The notes beneath the pieces are model-generated. The model was not told where the DNA came from. It saw only the letters and a list, made by a program, of their open reading frames with translations, and made no database searches. A program made the position numbers and the translations under genes. A stretch of 64,000 bases of DNA, from contig NZ_CP060010.1 in NCBI RefSeq assembly GCF_017798205.1, positions 620,001 to 684,000 of the forward strand, given 5' to 3'. This stretch comes from Cognatishimia activa (GTDB lineage: Bacteria; Pseudomonadota; Alphaproteobacteria; Rhodobacterales; Rhodobacteraceae). Shown piece by piece: positions 22,991-37,104 of the stretch (positions are counted from its first letter, which is position 1; each line of letters starts with the position of its first letter).

Positions 22991-25307
<2,317 letters not shown>

Positions 25308-25319
25308 GGTCTGAACTCC

Positions 25320-26858
25320 TTATGCGAAGTCTGCGGCGAATTCGTCGAGCGCTGCTTTGATCTTGTCTGCGGCGTCGCCTTTGATTTTCTGATCTTCTTC
25401 AGTGATCCACGCGAGCAGGTCAGCATGCTTGCCACGCAGGTGCGCCAGCAGGCCTTGCTCGTAACGGCCAACGTCTTTCACGTCGACAGTGTCGAGGTAA
25501 CCGTTGGTACCTGCGAAAATCAGGCAGACGATTTCAGAGTTGGTCAGTGGCGAGTACTGAGGCTGTTTCATCAGCTCGGTCAGACGCGCACCACGGTTCA
25601 GCAGCTGCTGAGTTGCGGCGTCAAGGTCAGAACCAAACTGAGCAAAGGCTGCCATCTCACGATACTGAGCGAGGGACAGTTTAACTGGACCTGCAACAGA
25701 AGACATCGCTTTGGTTTGTGCCGAGGAACCAACACGGGAAACCGACAGACCGGTGTTCACCGCTGGGCGGATACCTTGGTAGAAGAGTTCGGTTTCCAAG
25801 AAGATCTGACCGTCGGTGATCGAGATCACGTTGGTTGGAATAAACGCGGAAACGTCACCACCTTGGGTTTCGATGACTGGCAGCGCGGTCAGAGAGCCTG
25901 CGCCGAAGTCTTCGTTCAGCTTCGCGGAGCGCTCCAGCAGACGGGAGTGCAGATAGAAAACGTCACCAGGATACGCTTCACGGCCCGGTGGGCGACGCAG
26001 CAGCAGGGACATCTGACGATACGCAACCGCTTGTTTGGACAGGTCATCATAGATGATCAGAGCGTGCTTGCCGTTGTCACGGAAGTATTCCGCCATCGCA
26101 GTCGCCGCGTAAGGTGCGAGGAACTGCATTGGTGCAGGGTCAGATGCGGTCGCTGCCACAACGATCGAGTATTCAATCGCGCCGGACTCTTCCAGCTTCT
26201 TCACCAGCTGCGCAACAGTGGAGCGCTTTTGGCCAACCGCAACATAGACGCAGAACAGCTTCTTGCTGTCGTCGTCGCCGGCTGCGTCGTTGTAGGATTT
26301 CTGGTTCAGGATGGTGTCCAGAGCAATCGCGGTTTTACCGGTCTGACGGTCACCAATGATAAGTTCACGCTGGCCACGGCCGATTGGGATCATCGCGTCA
26401 ACGGATTTCAGGCCGGTCGCCATTGGCTCGTGCACAGATTTCCGTGGGATAATGCCAGGCGCTTTAACGTCTGCAACGTTACGTGCTTTGGCGTCGATTG
26501 GGCCCTTGCCGTCCAGCGGGTTGCCCAGACCGTCGACAACGCGACCCAGCAGCTCTGGGCCAACTGGAACGTCAACGATGGAGTTGGTGCGCTTTACAGT
26601 GTCACCTTCTTTAATGTCGCGGTCGGAACCAAAGATAACAACACCAACGTTGTCGCTTTCCAGGTTCAGAGCCATCCCCATGATACCACCAGGGAATTCG
26701 ACCATCTCACCCGCCTGAACATTGTCCAGACCATAAACGCGGGCGATACCGTCACCGACGGAAAGCACACGGCCAACCTCGGCAACTTCGGCTTCCTGAC
26801 CAAAGTTCTTGATCTGGTCTTTCAGGATTGCCGAGATTTCGGCTGCTTGGATACCCAT
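25320..26858 (-). CDS. atpA: F1 ATP synthase alpha subunit
   Basis: This 512-residue non-catalytic nucleotide-binding subunit has [20 protein letters not shown] at the N-terminus, Walker A GDRQTGKT (about residue 170), [36 protein letters not shown], and the family signature with [17 protein letters not shown]. Its ATG shares its last base position with the atpH stop, so it is closely coupled to atpH. Confidence 0.97.
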
Positions 26859-27418
26859 TATCCGACCTCTTTCATTGCATTCTGAAGGGAATTGAGCTTG
26901 GAGCGGATCGACGTGTCGATCATCTTCGAGCCCACCTTAACGACGAGACCGCCGATGAGAGATTCATCAACGGTCGCATTAATTTTGACATCCTTGCCAA
27001 CGCGCTCTTTGAGCGTCTTGGCCAGTTTGTCAGATTGAGTCTTCGTCAGAGCCTTGGCCGAGGTGACATCTGCGGTCACTTCGCCTTTGTCCTCTGCCAC
27101 CAGATCACGCAGGCGCGCAACCAGCTGAGGCAGAACGAACAGACGACGGTTCTCCGCCATCAAGCTCAGGGTGTTGGTGAGCACATCGTCCAAGCCCATT
27201 TTCGCAGCAACCGCTGCAATGGCCTTGCCCTGTACGTCACGGGAATACACCGGGGAATTGATCAACTCGCGCAGGTCTGCGCTGTCTTCCAGGGCTGCGC
27301 TCAAGGCATCAATGCCTTTTTCGAGCTTAGCAACACCTTTGGACTCTTTTGCGATCTCGAAAACCGCAGTGGCATAGCGCGCGGCGATGCCTTGTGAAAT
27401 CGAAGCTGGTTCGGACAC
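26858..27418 (-). CDS. atpH: F1 ATP synthase delta subunit
   Basis: This subunit of about 186 residues links F1 to the peripheral stalk. It has [62 protein letters not shown], and the C-terminal [26 protein letters not shown] use the GTG at 27418 because GGAAGGG lies 5 nt upstream; the GTG at 27424 lacks spacing. It is the first gene of atpHAGDC. F0 genes are not in the window, as usual in alphaproteobacteria. Confidence 0.95.
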
Positions 27419-27710
27419 GTCCACCCTTCCGATATTTGGCCTCGGTATACCGCTGTATGCAGCCTCCGAGGACGTTAGTCGTTCCGACGCAAATCAGAAC
27501 GTTGAAATCTTGGCGGGGTGTATCAGAGGAGTCCTAAGCTCGCAATATTGTTTCGCTTCTGCAGCGAACGAGAAAAACACTAAGTTTTTAAGGCGTTGAC
27601 GCAGGTGCGACCCTTTGACTGATTTTTGTTAAGAAAATTTCGCACAAAAATCGGGTCAAAAGGCGATTCTCTCGGCGAAATTTTCCGATTTGGATCGCGT
27701 TTGTTTGCGC

Positions 27711-32121: not shown

Positions 32122-32592
32122 ATGTTCAAAAGACTACTATTGCTATTCACCCACGCCGGAGCTCTGGCCGTCGGCTTTGCACTTGGTATATACCTGCTCC
32201 CCATCCTGACTGCCCCGCCCTCGCCCGACGCGGATATGCTTGAGGAAAAGGCCCAAGCGGCACTCTTCTCGGCGGAATTCACCCGCGATCTGCGCGGCAG
32301 CGACTTCCTACATTGGGGCGAAGGCAAAGTATCCGTGACGGCAGAAAGCATCGTTCACGAAGGCAAAATGGCGCCGGGACCGGACTATAAACTCTATCTG
32401 ACCAAGGATTTCGTTGAACACGAAGACGAGTTTAATCCGATCAAATCCGAAGCGGCCCTCGTTGGCGACATCAAAAGCTTTGGCGGCTTTCTCGTGGACG
32501 TTCCGCAGGGCGTGAACGTCAGCGACTACACCACCGTTGTCGTCTGGTGCGAGAGCTTTGGCGAATTCATCACATCCGCCAAATATCAATAA
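32122..32592 (+). CDS. DM13 domain membrane-anchored protein
   Basis: This 156-residue protein has an N-terminal uncleaved membrane anchor or signal (residues 1-27, LLLLFTHAGALAVGFALGIYLL) and a DM13 domain. Visible DM13 features are HWGEGKVSV, GPDYKLYLTKDFV, LVGDIKSFGGFLVDVPQGVNVSDYTTVVVWCESFGEFITSAKY, with the conserved Cys in VWCESF. DM13 domains are thought to be redox or electron-transfer related in bacteria, without firm proof. It converges on the OmpA/coiled-coil gene, whose stop is adjacent. Confidence 0.85.
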   Translation: MFKRLLLLFTHAGALAVGFALGIYLLPILTAPPSPDADMLEEKAQAALFSAEFTRDLRGSDFLHWGEGKVSVTAESIVHEGKMAPGPDYKLYLTKDFVEHEDEFNPIKSEAALVGDIKSFGGFLVDVPQGVNVSDYTTVVVWCESFGEFITSAKYQ

Positions 32593-35286
32593 TCATTTCT
32601 CAGTAAACTTCAGCTCGATGCGGCGGTTCTTGGCCCGCGCCTCGCGGGTATTGGCCGTATCAATCGGCTGATATTCCCCAAACCCGTTGGCCGACAGGCG
32701 GCTCGGCGGCAGGCCCATTTGCTCAGACAGAAGGCGCACCACAGACAAAGCGCGCGCCTGTGACAGTTCCCAGTTGTCCGCGAACTCAGGGTTATTGCGG
32801 ATCGGAATATCGTCGGTGTGACCATCGACCTGCAAAACCCAGTCGATTTCCGGCGGGATCTGATCCGCCACATCCTGCAACAGGCTCGCCACGCGGGCAA
32901 TCTGCGCCACACCCTCGCCGCTCATCTCAGCGCCACCGGGTGGGAACAGAACCTCGGACGAGAACACAAAGCGGTCGCCCACGATCTGAACCCCTTGGCG
33001 GTTGCCCAAGAGATCACGCATCCGGCCAAAGAACTCAGACCGATAGCGTTCCAGATCCTCGGCCTCAGCCGCCAGACGCGCGGCTTCTTCTTCCAACCGC
33101 TTACGCTCTGCTTCCTCAAGCTGACGACGACGGCGCTCTTCGGCCGCCGCGCGCGCCAGCGCTGCGTTCAAATCGCGCCCAAGCGTGTCCAGTTGCACCT
33201 GAGCCTCAGCATCGCGCTCAAGGCTTTCATCCAATAGACCCTGCAACTGGTTCAACTGACGGCGCAGCTCCAGAACCTGCTGGTTCAACAGGGCCACTTG
33301 TTTCTCGCCCTCCGTGGCCCGCGCGCGCTCATCCTCCAGCGCCTGGTTCGCAAGCGCCAACAGACGTTCACGCTCCTCTGCTGCCGTCAGAGTGGTATCC
33401 GCCGCATTCTCAGCGGCTTCACGCGCTGCAATCGCCGCTGCGAGCTGACGCTGTATCTCTTCCTGATCCAACGCCGCTTGTTCAGCCGCTTCCTGTGCCG
33501 CCAAGGCGCGCGCGAGCTGTTCTTTCAGATCGGCCTGCTCATTGGTCAACAGCTCGATGTTTTGCTCAATCGCAATCCGTTCCGCCAAAGCTGCCGCCAG
33601 ACGGTCCTCAAGATTCTCGACCGTGTTCTGAGACGCCAGCCGTTGCGCAATCGCCTCTTCCAACGCCTTGCGCAGATCATCCGAAGTCTGCCCCGCGTCC
33701 TGCGCCGATTGCTGCGCCACCAAAGCCGCCGTCAACTGTTCCTCAAGCGACGCCACCTGCCCCGCCAAAGTCTCACCACTGCGCTCCGCCGCCGTCGCGC
33801 GATTTTCCGCAGCCAGCTGGGCGGCCAAGGCCTCTTGCAGGCGCGTTTCCAGATCCGCGTTCACCGCCGTCAGTTCCGCATCGCGCGCCGCCGCTGATGC
33901 CTCAAGCGCCGCCAAGCGCGCGTTCAAATCCGCGAGCCGACCTTCCAATTCCGTGCGCGTGTCTGTGGATTGTGTCTCTGTCCGCGCCAATTGCGCCTGT
34001 GTTTCGGCCAAAGCCTGACGGGTCGCGGCCAGTTGCTCTTGGCTGACGCTTTCATTGGCTTCGGATGCCGCAAGGCTCGCCGTCACTGCTGCCAACCGCG
34101 CCTCAAGATCCTCTATCGTGACCGTGTTCTGATCGACCTGCAGCAAGGCCGCCGTCAATTGCGCCGTCGCGGATGCCAGCTCATTTTCCGTCGATAGCCG
34201 GTCATTCCGCGCCTGCTCCAGATTGGCCAACGCCGCCGTCAAATCCGTCTGCAACCGCGCCACATCCTGCGTCAGAGACTCGCCCGTCTGATCGGCCTGC
34301 TCAAGGCGCAGCAATGTCGCCGCCAGTTCCTCAAGCGTCTTCTCGGATTCCCCTTGCGTTGTCTCAAGCGTCAGCAAAGCCTTGGTCAGCTGACTTTCCA
34401 GATCTTCTTCCTTCACCAGCGCCGCCGCCAGTTTCAGATCCAGATCTTCGCGCGCCTTTTCAGCCGCTGCCAAAAGGGTCAGAGTATCTTCCGCCGCCTT
34501 ACGTTGTTCTTCCAACGCGAGCGTCAGCGAGGTCAGCTCGGCATCCGCCTCCTCCAGCCGTTTGCGCAATTCCTCTGCAGCCGCGGCCTCGGCTAGCTTC
34601 GCGATTTCCTCTTGGCTTAGCTCGGCCTGCAATTCCTCGATCCGCGCCGCCAATGCCGCACTTGCGTCCGCATCCTGCGAAGCCTCGGCCTCGAGCTGCG
34701 CAATCAACGTCTCCAGCGCCTCACGCTGTGCCGCCGCCAGTCGCGCGGCTTCCGCTTGCGCGTCAATCTCATCGCGCGCCTGCGCCAATGCAAGGTTCAT
34801 CGCCTCTTGCTGGGTCAGCAATTCGGCCTTTTCGCCTTCAAGCGTTTCAATCGCGATATTGGCTTCGTTCTGCTGCGCAATGAGGGCGGCGACCTGCGCT
34901 TCAAAGGCCGTGATCTGCGCCTCATAGGCCACCTGTTGGTCGCGCGCGTCGTTGCGTTCCGAAATCAGGGACGCAATGAGCAATGCGTTGGTTTCGGCCT
35001 CAGCCTGTGCATCCGACAGCGTGGATTCCAGCGTACCAATCTGCGCTTCCAAATCGCGGTTGCGATCCCGCGCCAGACCCAATTGCTGCGCTAAGGCTGA
35101 GAGTTCCGCCGAAAGCTCGCCAAGCTGGTTTTCCTGCCCTGTGATGGTTTCCCGCAGCACATATTGCAGCACCATAAAAATCGTCAGAACGAACATCAGG
35201 ACCAGCAACAGCCCCGTCATCGCATCCACAAAGCCGGGCCAGATCTGAGCCTGAAAACGTTGACCAGTGCGCCGCGACAGAGCCAT
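32593..35286 (-). CDS. MotB/OmpA-like protein with giant coiled coil
   Basis: This 897-residue protein has three parts. Residues 1-45 form a short cytoplasmic tail and one MotB/TolR-like membrane helix (WPGFVDAMTGLLLVLMFVLT), with Asp21 at the position that carries protons in MotB. Residues from about 47 to 760 are almost uninterrupted heptad-like, Ala/Glu/Gln/Leu-rich coiled coil. Residues from about 763 to 897 are an OmpA/MotB peptidoglycan-binding domain (VDGHTDDIPI, NWELSQARALSVVRLL, ANGFGEYQPI, NRRIEL). It starts 3 bp after the MotA/ExbB-like gene and surely works with it. The result would be a proton-driven stator whose arm could span a large part of the envelope. Cellular role unknown. 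Confidence 0.88.
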   Translation of the reverse strand: MALSRRTGQRFQAQIWPGFVDAMTGLLLVLMFVLTIFMVLQYVLRETITGQENQLGELSAELSALAQQLGLARDRNRDLEAQIGTLESTLSDAQAEAETNALLIASLISERNDARDQQVAYEAQITAFEAQVAALIAQQNEANIAIETLEGEKAELLTQQEAMNLALAQARDEIDAQAEAARLAAAQREALETLIAQLEAEASQDADASAALAARIEELQAELSQEEIAKLAEAAAAEELRKRLEEADAELTSLTLALEEQRKAAEDTLTLLAAAEKAREDLDLKLAAALVKEEDLESQLTKALLTLETTQGESEKTLEELAATLLRLEQADQTGESLTQDVARLQTDLTAALANLEQARNDRLSTENELASATAQLTAALLQVDQNTVTIEDLEARLAAVTASLAASEANESVSQEQLAATRQALAETQAQLARTETQSTDTRTELEGRLADLNARLAALEASAAARDAELTAVNADLETRLQEALAAQLAAENRATAAERSGETLAGQVASLEEQLTAALVAQQSAQDAGQTSDDLRKALEEAIAQRLASQNTVENLEDRLAAALAERIAIEQNIELLTNEQADLKEQLARALAAQEAAEQAALDQEEIQRQLAAAIAAREAAENAADTTLTAAEERERLLALANQALEDERARATEGEKQVALLNQQVLELRRQLNQLQGLLDESLERDAEAQVQLDTLGRDLNAALARAAAEERRRRQLEEAERKRLEEEAARLAAEAEDLERYRSEFFGRMRDLLGNRQGVQIVGDRFVFSSEVLFPPGGAEMSGEGVAQIARVASLLQDVADQIPPEIDWVLQVDGHTDDIPIRNNPEFADNWELSQARALSVVRLLSEQMGLPPSRLSANGFGEYQPIDTANTREARAKNRRIELKFTEK

Positions 35287-35289
35287 GAC

Positions 35290-36489
35290 TTAGTCGTCCT
35301 GCCCCGGGTGGATCCGGCGTCGGCCTTTGCTCGACTGCGACAAGACGCCGATGGCCTGTGTCAATGCATTCAGGTCCTGACGGATCTCGGACATGCTTTC
35401 CTGGCGACCCGCGCTGATTTCTTCCAGAATACGCAACATCTGAACGTCGATCGACCGCAGACGCATCCGGCTTTCGGCATCCACACCTTCGCCCTGATGC
35501 ATCTCAGACAAGGTCGCGATCAAGCGTTCCTGCCCCTCAGCCACGCGGATCATCGCCGTACCCGCACCACCGTCACGGCTCATCTGCGCGGTCAGTTGGT
35601 TCAGCGAATTCGCAAGGTCTCCGATCTGATTTTCGATGACAGTGCGCCGCTCTTCAGATTCCGCGAAGGTCGTCTGAAGCCGATCCATCTGCAGGATCAT
35701 ATGCTCGAGCGCCTCGCCAAAAATCGACGCCTCACCAGAGCCGTCCATGTCGCCCGAAGAAAAGCCGACGCGGGTGATCGTCGACAGCCACTCTTCCATC
35801 TCTTGGTAAAAGCGGTTCTGTGCGTGGCCCGCGAAGAGTTCAAGCAGCCCAACAATCAGCGACCCCGCCAGACCCAGCAGGGACGAGGCAAAGGCAATCC
35901 CCATGCCGCCCATTTGTTCTTCAAGGCCACTTTGAAGGCGCACAAAAACATCCGCACCGGTCTCGCCATCCTTGGGCGTCAGGCTGCGGATGGTTTCCAC
36001 AATCGCCGGAACCGAGGTCGCGAGACCGTAAAACGTGCCCAAAAGCCCCAGGAAAATCAGCAAGCCGGTAATATAACGCGTGATTTCCCGCGCCTCATCG
36101 ACCCGCGTGCCGACCGAGTCCAAAATAGACCGTGTCGAGGCCGTCGAGATCTGGCTCTGCGCCCCACGCGCCCGCAGCAAAGACGCCAGAGGCGCGAGCA
36201 GTCGAGGCGGTTGGAACATATCGTGTCCGGGGATCTGCGCCGCAAAGCCTTCGATCCAGCGCACCGAGGAAATCATTGAAATCACTTGCCAAAAACAAGC
36301 GAACACCCCGATCAGAAAGACAAAAACGATGACCCCGTTAAACCAGGGATTGGCGATAAAGACCGGCAATACCCGCGGCAGGGCGATGTAGCTGCCGACA
36401 GCAGTTAACGCCAAAACGGCCAGCATCGAGAAGATCTGGCTAATCGGTTGCGAGAATTGTGGCTCGGCCTCGCGGTCTGGCAGCTCCAT
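35290..36489 (-). CDS. MotA/TolQ/ExbB-family proton channel protein
   Basis: This protein of about 399 residues has four predicted membrane helices (about 21-44, 49-74, 140-164 and 196-220). The last two carry the family signatures LGLLGTFYGLATSVPAI and GMGIAFASSLLGLAGSLIVGLLEL. A C-terminal cytoplasmic helical region of about 170 residues follows (DRLQTTFAESEERRTVIENQIGDLANSLNQL). The ATG at 36489 is chosen because AGGAG lies 8 nt upstream; an in-frame GTG at 36507 is inside that site. It pairs with the downstream OmpA-like gene. Its arrangement differs from tolQRA, exbBD and motAB, and no flagellar, Tol or Ton gene is adjacent. Confidence 0.88.
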   Translation of the reverse strand: MELPDREAEPQFSQPISQIFSMLAVLALTAVGSYIALPRVLPVFIANPWFNGVIVFVFLIGVFACFWQVISMISSVRWIEGFAAQIPGHDMFQPPRLLAPLASLLRARGAQSQISTASTRSILDSVGTRVDEAREITRYITGLLIFLGLLGTFYGLATSVPAIVETIRSLTPKDGETGADVFVRLQSGLEEQMGGMGIAFASSLLGLAGSLIVGLLELFAGHAQNRFYQEMEEWLSTITRVGFSSGDMDGSGEASIFGEALEHMILQMDRLQTTFAESEERRTVIENQIGDLANSLNQLTAQMSRDGGAGTAMIRVAEGQERLIATLSEMHQGEGVDAESRMRLRSIDVQMLRILEEISAGRQESMSEIRQDLNALTQAIGVLSQSSKGRRRIHPGQDD

Positions 36490-36576
36490 AGAGGCGGCTC
36501 CTGACACTGTTTCTTTTCTGCCGACACCCTACTGCGCGCGCAGCATCCTGCCAAGGATTATTGGTTTATTGCGCAA

Positions 36577-37104
36577 TTAACTGGCCAACTGACGCACACG
36601 GGTCGACAACCAGTTCAAATCTGCGTCCTCAATGCCCAGATCGGTCAAATGCGCGGCGGTATTGTAAAGATATTCCGTGTTGGGACCGCGTCCCCCGACA
36701 GCGGTCGAGATAATCTGCGCCTGCTCTTCCAGATCCAAATGCACATATTGCACATGGTTTGGGTCGATCACATAGGTCACGGCCTGCACGCGCCGCCCAT
36801 CGGCGAGATCAATCATCAGATTGGTTTCCAGATAGGCCGAAGACACGAGTTCCCGTTCCCGCAATTCCGCCAGCGCGGCCTCTTCGCTCCCGGGGGTCAC
36901 CCGAAACGCCACCCCGTGACAGACCGCGCCGTCCGCGGCGTCCAGCGCCAGGACCAGCCCCGGATGCTCATCGGTGCCACGATGGTGGATCGAGGACATG
37001 CAAAAGCTGCGGTGCCAGTCGGGCAACGTCGCCACGACCTGCTCGGCCACATCAATGCCTGGGTTCCACAAAAGCGACCCATACCCGAAAACCCAAAGCG
37101 TCAT
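36577..37104 (-). CDS. glutathione-specific gamma-glutamylcyclotransferase (ChaC-like)
   Basis: This 175-residue protein has the ChaC pattern: VFGYGSLLWNPG at residues 5-16, RSFCMSSIHHRGTDEHPGLVLALD, CHGVAFRV, and the RERE segment (82-85) with the candidate catalytic Glu. Then come VTYVIDPNHVQYV and GPNTEYLYNTAAHLTDLGI. ChaC splits glutathione to 5-oxoproline and Cys-Gly. It is divergent from the DUF2125 gene. Confidence 0.9.
   Translation of the reverse strand: MTLWVFGYGSLLWNPGIDVAEQVVATLPDWHRSFCMSSIHHRGTDEHPGLVLALDAADGAVCHGVAFRVTPGSEEAALAELRERELVSSAYLETNLMIDLADGRRVQAVTYVIDPNHVQYVHLDLEEQAQIISTAVGGRGPNTEYLYNTAAHLTDLGIEDADLNWLSTRVRQLAS

Follow-up and report, generated by a model that had tools for sequence, protein, structure and literature searches.

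Gene architecture of the A/B locus

A 64,000-nucleotide stretch of the Cognatishimia activa chromosome (contig NZ_CP060010.1, positions 620,001 to 684,000; hereafter the window, in whose own numbering all positions are given) carries two adjacent reverse-strand genes, here called A and B, which a first-pass annotation had described as a channel protein coupled to a MotB-like protein with a coiled-coil middle. The open reading frames (ORFs) and a match to PF00691 bore this out, including the aspartate in the membrane helix of B (Asp21) and the OmpA domain at its C-terminus. The pairing was also more than chance, as A is present in 22 of 23 same-family relatives and a B gene directly follows A in nearly every locus read. 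The A/B system is therefore real and conserved, and is kin of a known motor type rather than a new kind.

Gene A (35290..36489, minus strand) encodes a putative channel or ring subunit of 399 aa with four transmembrane (TM) helices and a cytoplasmic helical tail, as judged from an upstream AGGAG, an AlphaFold fold match and class-wide conservation. The ATG at 36489 was preferred as the start over a longer ORF beginning with GTG at 36507, because the AGGAG lies at a proper distance, 8 nt ahead of it. The TAA stop of A is separated by only 3 nt from the ATG of B at 35286, on the same strand. The transmembrane core of A (35767..36444, minus strand; residues 22–247 of the 405-aa ORF) contains the motifs FLGLLGTF (with Thr158) and GMGxAFxSS, the columns of which are invariant across 46 sequences. 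The tail (35326..35724, minus strand; residues 262–394) is predicted to be helical with lower confidence, and ends in the motif R(S/N)xDxxxxRxLEExxxGR in 109 of 162 relatives.

In the AlphaFold model built from 46 sequences, where the predicted local distance difference test score (pLDDT) of the membrane core is mostly >90, A has the four-helix membrane fold of TolQ, ExbB, ZorA and MotA. The top 25 structural rows returned by VIA-align all belonged to these four proteins (Z 12.0–9.2), and Foldseek gave a probability of 1.00, though with an E-value of only 5e-3. The score of A against the Pfam family MotA_ExbB (PF01618) was 15.7 bits, under the cut-off of 22.9. A profile of A matched the TolQ of its own genome over one 25-residue stretch (Prob 31) and showed no similarity to the MotA of that genome in profile comparison, while a sequence search of the PDB with this profile matched coiled-coil tails only. 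Because the comparisons with TolQ and MotA gave so little, the relatedness of A rests on its fold and on weak matches to ZorA proteins, which are its nearest sequence relatives outside its own family.

Gene B (32593..35286, minus strand) encodes a MotB-like protein of 897 aa that would serve as axle and anchor. Its sole TM helix (35161..35238, minus strand; residues 17–42) holds Asp21 (codon 35226-35224) within WPGFVD(21)AM, and the WPGFVDA motif recurs in the B genes of relatives that were chosen purely by position. The periplasmic coiled coil follows (33052..35154, minus strand; about residues 45–745), close to the 700 residues first estimated. It is proline-free, as is the whole of residues 18 to 781, contains 14 glycines, and is in heptad register with both Asp21 and the OmpA domain. 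This last, predicted to bind peptidoglycan (32602..32979, minus strand), carries GDRFVF at residue 770 and retains GHTD with Asp825; PF00691 matched residues 781–888 with an E-value of 1.8e-15. The wall-binding signature GH(T/A)D or GY(T/A)D is found in 180 of 181 relatives. The Pfam scan of B returned OmpA only and no TolR/ExbD domain. According to a recent survey, OmpA-like domains are missing from non-flagellar B subunits (PMC12505986), a statement that the OmpA domain of B qualifies.

By its score of 738.1 bits against NCBIfam NF006542 (curated cut-off 388), B is a full member of the catalogued family PRK09039. This family (NF006542-NF006546) is named only 'peptidoglycan -binding protein', and the orthologues of the pair in Sinorhizobium meliloti (S. 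meliloti) are annotated as 'MotA/TolQ/ExbB proton channel family protein' and 'peptidoglycan -binding protein'. In the searchable literature PRK09039 had incidental mentions only, with no partner, mechanism or coil rule described, and a functional study of the A/B pair was not found. The suggestion that this is an undescribed system thus holds as far as an established function is concerned, but B itself is catalogued and the pair is widespread.

Heptad periodicity of the B coil

In 181 loci we counted the residues that separate the membrane Asp from the OmpA motif GDRFVF, up to the first Gly of that motif; this distance is here called the span. In the window the span runs from Asp21 to Gly770 and measures 749 residues, which is exactly 107 x 7. 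It varied 14-fold among the loci, from 158 to 2215 residues, and was a multiple of 7 in 129 of them, where about 26 would be expected. Another 43 spans left a remainder of 3 or 4 on division by 7, indicating a single stutter (half a heptad), and only 9 fell in the other classes. Removal of similar sequences left a whole-heptad span in 118 of 162 loci, and when each of the 89 distinct lengths was counted once, 49 were multiples of 7 (binomial p 3e-19). Periods of 2 to 15 were tested on the distinct spans, and gave a signal at 7 and 14 only. The same rule was seen between neighbors in sequence: 81 disjoint pairs of closest relatives of unequal length gave 45 differences that were multiples of 7 and 26 at 3 or 4. 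It also held in a set unused in finding it, with 14 of 18 spans whole-heptad, S. meliloti (196 residues) included; four loci of this later set come from outside Alphaproteobacteria (210, 210, 217 and 242 residues). Two control spacers, in the C protein described below and in the A tail, were not heptad-quantised (p 0.94 and 0.96, respectively).

The composition of the coils points in the same direction. Only 8 prolines were counted in a total of 52,653 coil residues, and in the 129 whole-heptad proteins the hydrophobic phase, taken from Asp21, was equal in the half nearer the membrane and the half nearer the wall. In the +4 class the half nearer the wall is shifted in phase, as expected from a stutter. 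Because the span is quantised in sevens, prolines are nearly absent and the hydrophobic phase is kept, it is strongly supported at the sequence level that B forms one unbroken, in-register coiled coil of fixed phase and free length.

A similar rule is known for the coiled-coil arms of SMC proteins, where natural coil lengths follow a periodicity tied to helix phase and the arms are proposed to transmit force (PMC5344682). Unlike B spans, however, SMC arm lengths also cluster at steps of ~100 residues; a superhelical period of ~91-100 residues was tested for in the B spans and was absent. The lack of such a step suggests that the relative azimuth of the two coil ends is irrelevant, and that only local helix continuity is constrained in B.

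The coil in relatives ranges from ~110 to 2170 residues, so its length is not tuned to the periplasmic gap; the phase is conserved instead. In this respect B is the opposite of a molecular spacer, its length being free and its phase fixed. The periplasmic gap measures no more than a few tens of nanometres. Taking ~1 nm per heptad for a coiled coil (PMC5082667), the B coil is estimated at ~100 nm here, at ~16 nm in the shortest relative and at ~310 nm in the longest. A coil of this length cannot stand radially across the periplasm and must therefore run along the wall or bend, and the earlier picture of an arm reaching through the periplasm did not survive this comparison.

Growth of B coils by DNA duplication is real. 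Of the 181 B genes, 27 contain in-register tandem arrays whose period is 21 bp or a multiple thereof; the B gene of the window has no 21-bp tandem array. In the B protein of locus L171 (G022:C12), 2363 aa long, the coil was lengthened by a 339-bp repeat in six to seven copies and is predicted to reach ~300 nm.

Distribution, neighbors and relation to known systems

A was found in 161 of 235 good-quality alphaproteobacterial genomes and is rare outside the class. No copy was found on phages, and among plasmid-collection records only three carried A, all of them multi-megabase. The locus is chromosomal, with neighbors of a housekeeping type. We also considered a sample of 20 A-bearing genomes of 0.7–2.8 Mb. 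Flagellin was absent from 15 of these (14 of the 17 of <=1.5 Mb), and all 20 had MotA_ExbB members, a TolQ-like gene and A being the sole two in most of the smallest genomes. B was present in all 19 genomes tested, including the 15 tested of those of <=1.5 Mb. A first impression that some reduced genomes had A without B was overturned, B being encoded elsewhere in them; at eight loci from reduced genomes A and B are unlinked and both kept. The best explanation of this distribution is that A/B constitutes a housekeeping machine of Alphaproteobacteria, core and vertically kept.

The gene order around the pair differs between lineages. In the window, a gene for a ChaC-like gamma-glutamyl cyclotransferase (36577..37104, minus strand; PF04752, 6.9e-42) lies upstream of A, as it does, on the same strand, in 20 of 21 Rhodobacteraceae loci; it is probably a neighbor only. 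The neighbors read in the window comprise ChaC, DUF2125, extensin-like, DM13, clpA and ATP synthase genes. The DM13-domain gene (32122-32592) converges on B without spacing, ending at 32592 where B ends at 32593, and the ATP synthase genes atpD, atpG, atpA and atpH (22991-27424) are on the strand of B, ~5 kb past its end. At four Rhizobiales loci the pair is preceded by thiE, a sel1-repeat gene and an inositol monophosphatase (IMPase) gene, with efp in some, and the divergent locus L296 has a B-like gene ahead of an A of 563 aa, with efp after it. A transposon sequencing (Tn-seq) paper on S. meliloti makes no mention of the pair, and identifies the IMPase family protein smc04042 as a histidinol-phosphatase, so that in other lineages the IMPase beside A may have no functional tie to it. 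No MotA, ExbB or OmpA term, and no link to A/B, was found in the text of the paper on the Rgs polar-growth proteins of S. meliloti, nor was MotA or ExbB found in that on the CenKR regulon.

A third protein, C, accompanies the pair in some lineages. It is secreted, rich in Pro and bears an OmpA-like domain, and it is encoded directly upstream of A on the same strand at 61 loci (one at L055:7004-7900 and 60 further ones), mostly in Rhodospirillales and relatives. Its OmpA-like domain has lost the wall-binding Asp (AYA-like for GHTD) and retains the LSLxRAL motif. C is likely a periplasmic partner in many lineages outside Rhodobacterales and Rhizobiales, optional at most, since it is absent from the C. 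activa genome and occurs also in genomes without A.

The first-pass annotation had set the pair apart from motAB, tolQR and exbBD, and this stands: tolQ-tolR and motA are encoded separately in the genome, and family scores are below their cut-offs. B resembles the B subunits of MotAB and PomAB in having a TM Asp and an OmpA-type wall-binding domain, but it inserts a long coil between the two, it occurs with A in genomes without flagellin, and it scored 77.6 against the 301 bits of the MotB equivalog PRK07734. TolQRA and ExbBD-TonB are alike in being envelope-directed and in providing the best structural matches of A (TolQ/ExbB, Z 11–12), and a TolQ-like gene is often the sole other such motor retained in reduced genomes. 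In contrast with these systems, B has an OmpA domain and a long coil rather than a TolR/ExbD domain, the A/B locus has no TolA- or TonB-like protein, and A has very little similarity to the TolQ of its own genome.

The ZorAB proteins of Zorya, especially type III, share with the pair a 5:2-type fold and a wall-binding B subunit with a TM Asp, and include the nearest outside relatives of A. However, the long element of Zorya is the cytoplasmic ZorA tail and its ZorB is short, whereas here the long element is the periplasmic B coil; the pair also has no effectors and is core rather than accessory. As the first-pass annotation had noted, no ZorC-, ZorD- or ZorE-like gene was found among the window neighbors read (ORFs, Pfam), and none in the S. 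meliloti neighborhood. A scored 9.1 bits against antiphage_ZorA_4 (cut-off 500) and 33 bits, over a partial length, against PADLOC ZorA1, where true ZorA3 genes score ~800-1100. Weak matches to the A profile in other proteobacteria (L277, L279 and L282) were pairs of a Zorya type III-like ZorA (~700 aa) and a ZorB (~215 aa), an assignment confirmed by PADLOC for L277 and L279.

A proposed tethered motor and its alternatives

We propose that A and B may form an ion-driven rotary motor of the 5:2 type, a member of the TolQ/ExbB/MotA/ZorA superfamily that would work beside Tol. By homology, ions would pass between TM3/TM4 of A and Asp21 of a B dimer, driving rotation of the A ring relative to the B axle; the label 'proton-driven' given to the pair earlier likewise derives from Asp21. 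The B dimer would leave the membrane as the unbroken, in-register coiled coil, the step for which the sequences argue strongly, and its intact OmpA domain, judging from the conserved residues, would clamp peptidoglycan at the far end. The length of the coil suggests a cable-tethered motor, able to move within the inner membrane about an anchor placed at a distance on the wall. Turning could put torsion or tension on this cable, and in this way the energised inner membrane could be coupled to the wall from afar, in support of growth or envelope maintenance. Taken as a whole, a wall-tethered motor of the 5:2 type that serves envelope maintenance or growth is our best explanation of the pair, one that we hold with middling confidence. 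More tentative is its stronger form, in which A/B would be an undescribed, near class-wide envelope motor and the B dimer a drive cable of ~16 to 310 nm along the wall.

Several points weigh against this model. The 5:2 stoichiometry, the dimeric and parallel state of the coil, the ion and the rotation are all features that we infer, and the output through torsion or tension is speculative. The 14 glycines of a coil this long could let it bend or double back; the single-sequence AlphaFold model of B has a few helix breaks, at a pLDDT of 59.6 that makes it too uncertain to use. The proposed periplasmic partner C is missing from C. activa itself and from the other Rhodobacteraceae tested. Finally, A is lacking in a complete genome of the same family (G467) and in about a third of the good alphaproteobacterial genomes, so the system is not universally essential.

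The main rival explanation places the output in the cytoplasm, as in MotAB and ZorAB: B would be a long leash to the wall, and the A ring with its bundled tails would rotate and act on a cytoplasmic partner. The OmpA-type B subunits MotB and ZorB do bind the wall and anchor their motors (PMC11890865; PMC9389320), and both the conserved C-terminal motif in the predicted helical tail of A and the closeness of A to ZorA speak for such an output. It is weakened by lineages in which the tail is only ~50 residues or, in L284 and L285 (A of 243–267 aa), nearly missing, whereas the B coil is never lost, and no conserved gene for a cytoplasmic partner was found in the neighborhoods examined. We regard this reading as possible but doubtful. 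The pair could instead serve chiefly to connect the inner membrane structurally to the wall, its channel doing little work, as the unconstrained length of the coil and the lack of an SMC-like superhelical period (PMC5344682) might suggest. Such a passive tether seems improbable, given the complete or near-complete conservation of the membrane Asp and of the motor motifs in TM3/TM4, and given that A is kept with B in genomes of 0.7–0.9 Mb, even unlinked.

Two further explanations concern the heptad rule and the function of the pair. The multiples of 7 could be a mutational habit, arising from slippage of 21-bp repeats rather than from selection for an unbroken coil, and the 27 genes with arrays as well as the repeat-grown coil of L171 fit this idea. 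Yet the quantisation is equally strong in the 144 array-free genes (103 whole-heptad) and holds for distant pairs too, one of them of 203 and 770 residues; the 339-bp repeat corresponds to 113 residues, which is not a whole number of heptads; and the scarcity of prolines and the constant hydrophobic phase both require that the helix itself be under selection. We therefore read the rule, from these sequence patterns, as selection for coil continuity, and give mutational bias a small but real chance. As for function, an anti-phage module of the Zorya kind is suggested by weak PADLOC matches of A to ZorA (5.9e-9) and of B to ZorB (2.4e-21, mostly over the OmpA domain). These do not approach the curated Zorya cut-offs, and a core, vertically kept locus with housekeeping neighbors, no ZorC, ZorD or ZorE and no phage copies makes a defence role very improbable indeed.

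The heptad rule is the most surprising and the most testable result of this analysis, and a coil that is free in length and locked in phase offers a natural experiment on what load-carrying coiled coils must preserve. If the stronger form of the tethered-motor model is true, A/B would be the first ion-driven 5:2 motor acting at a distance, in which the conserved quantity is helix phase and not length. Most Alphaproteobacteria, including S. meliloti and many reduced genomes, would carry an unstudied motor besides Tol.

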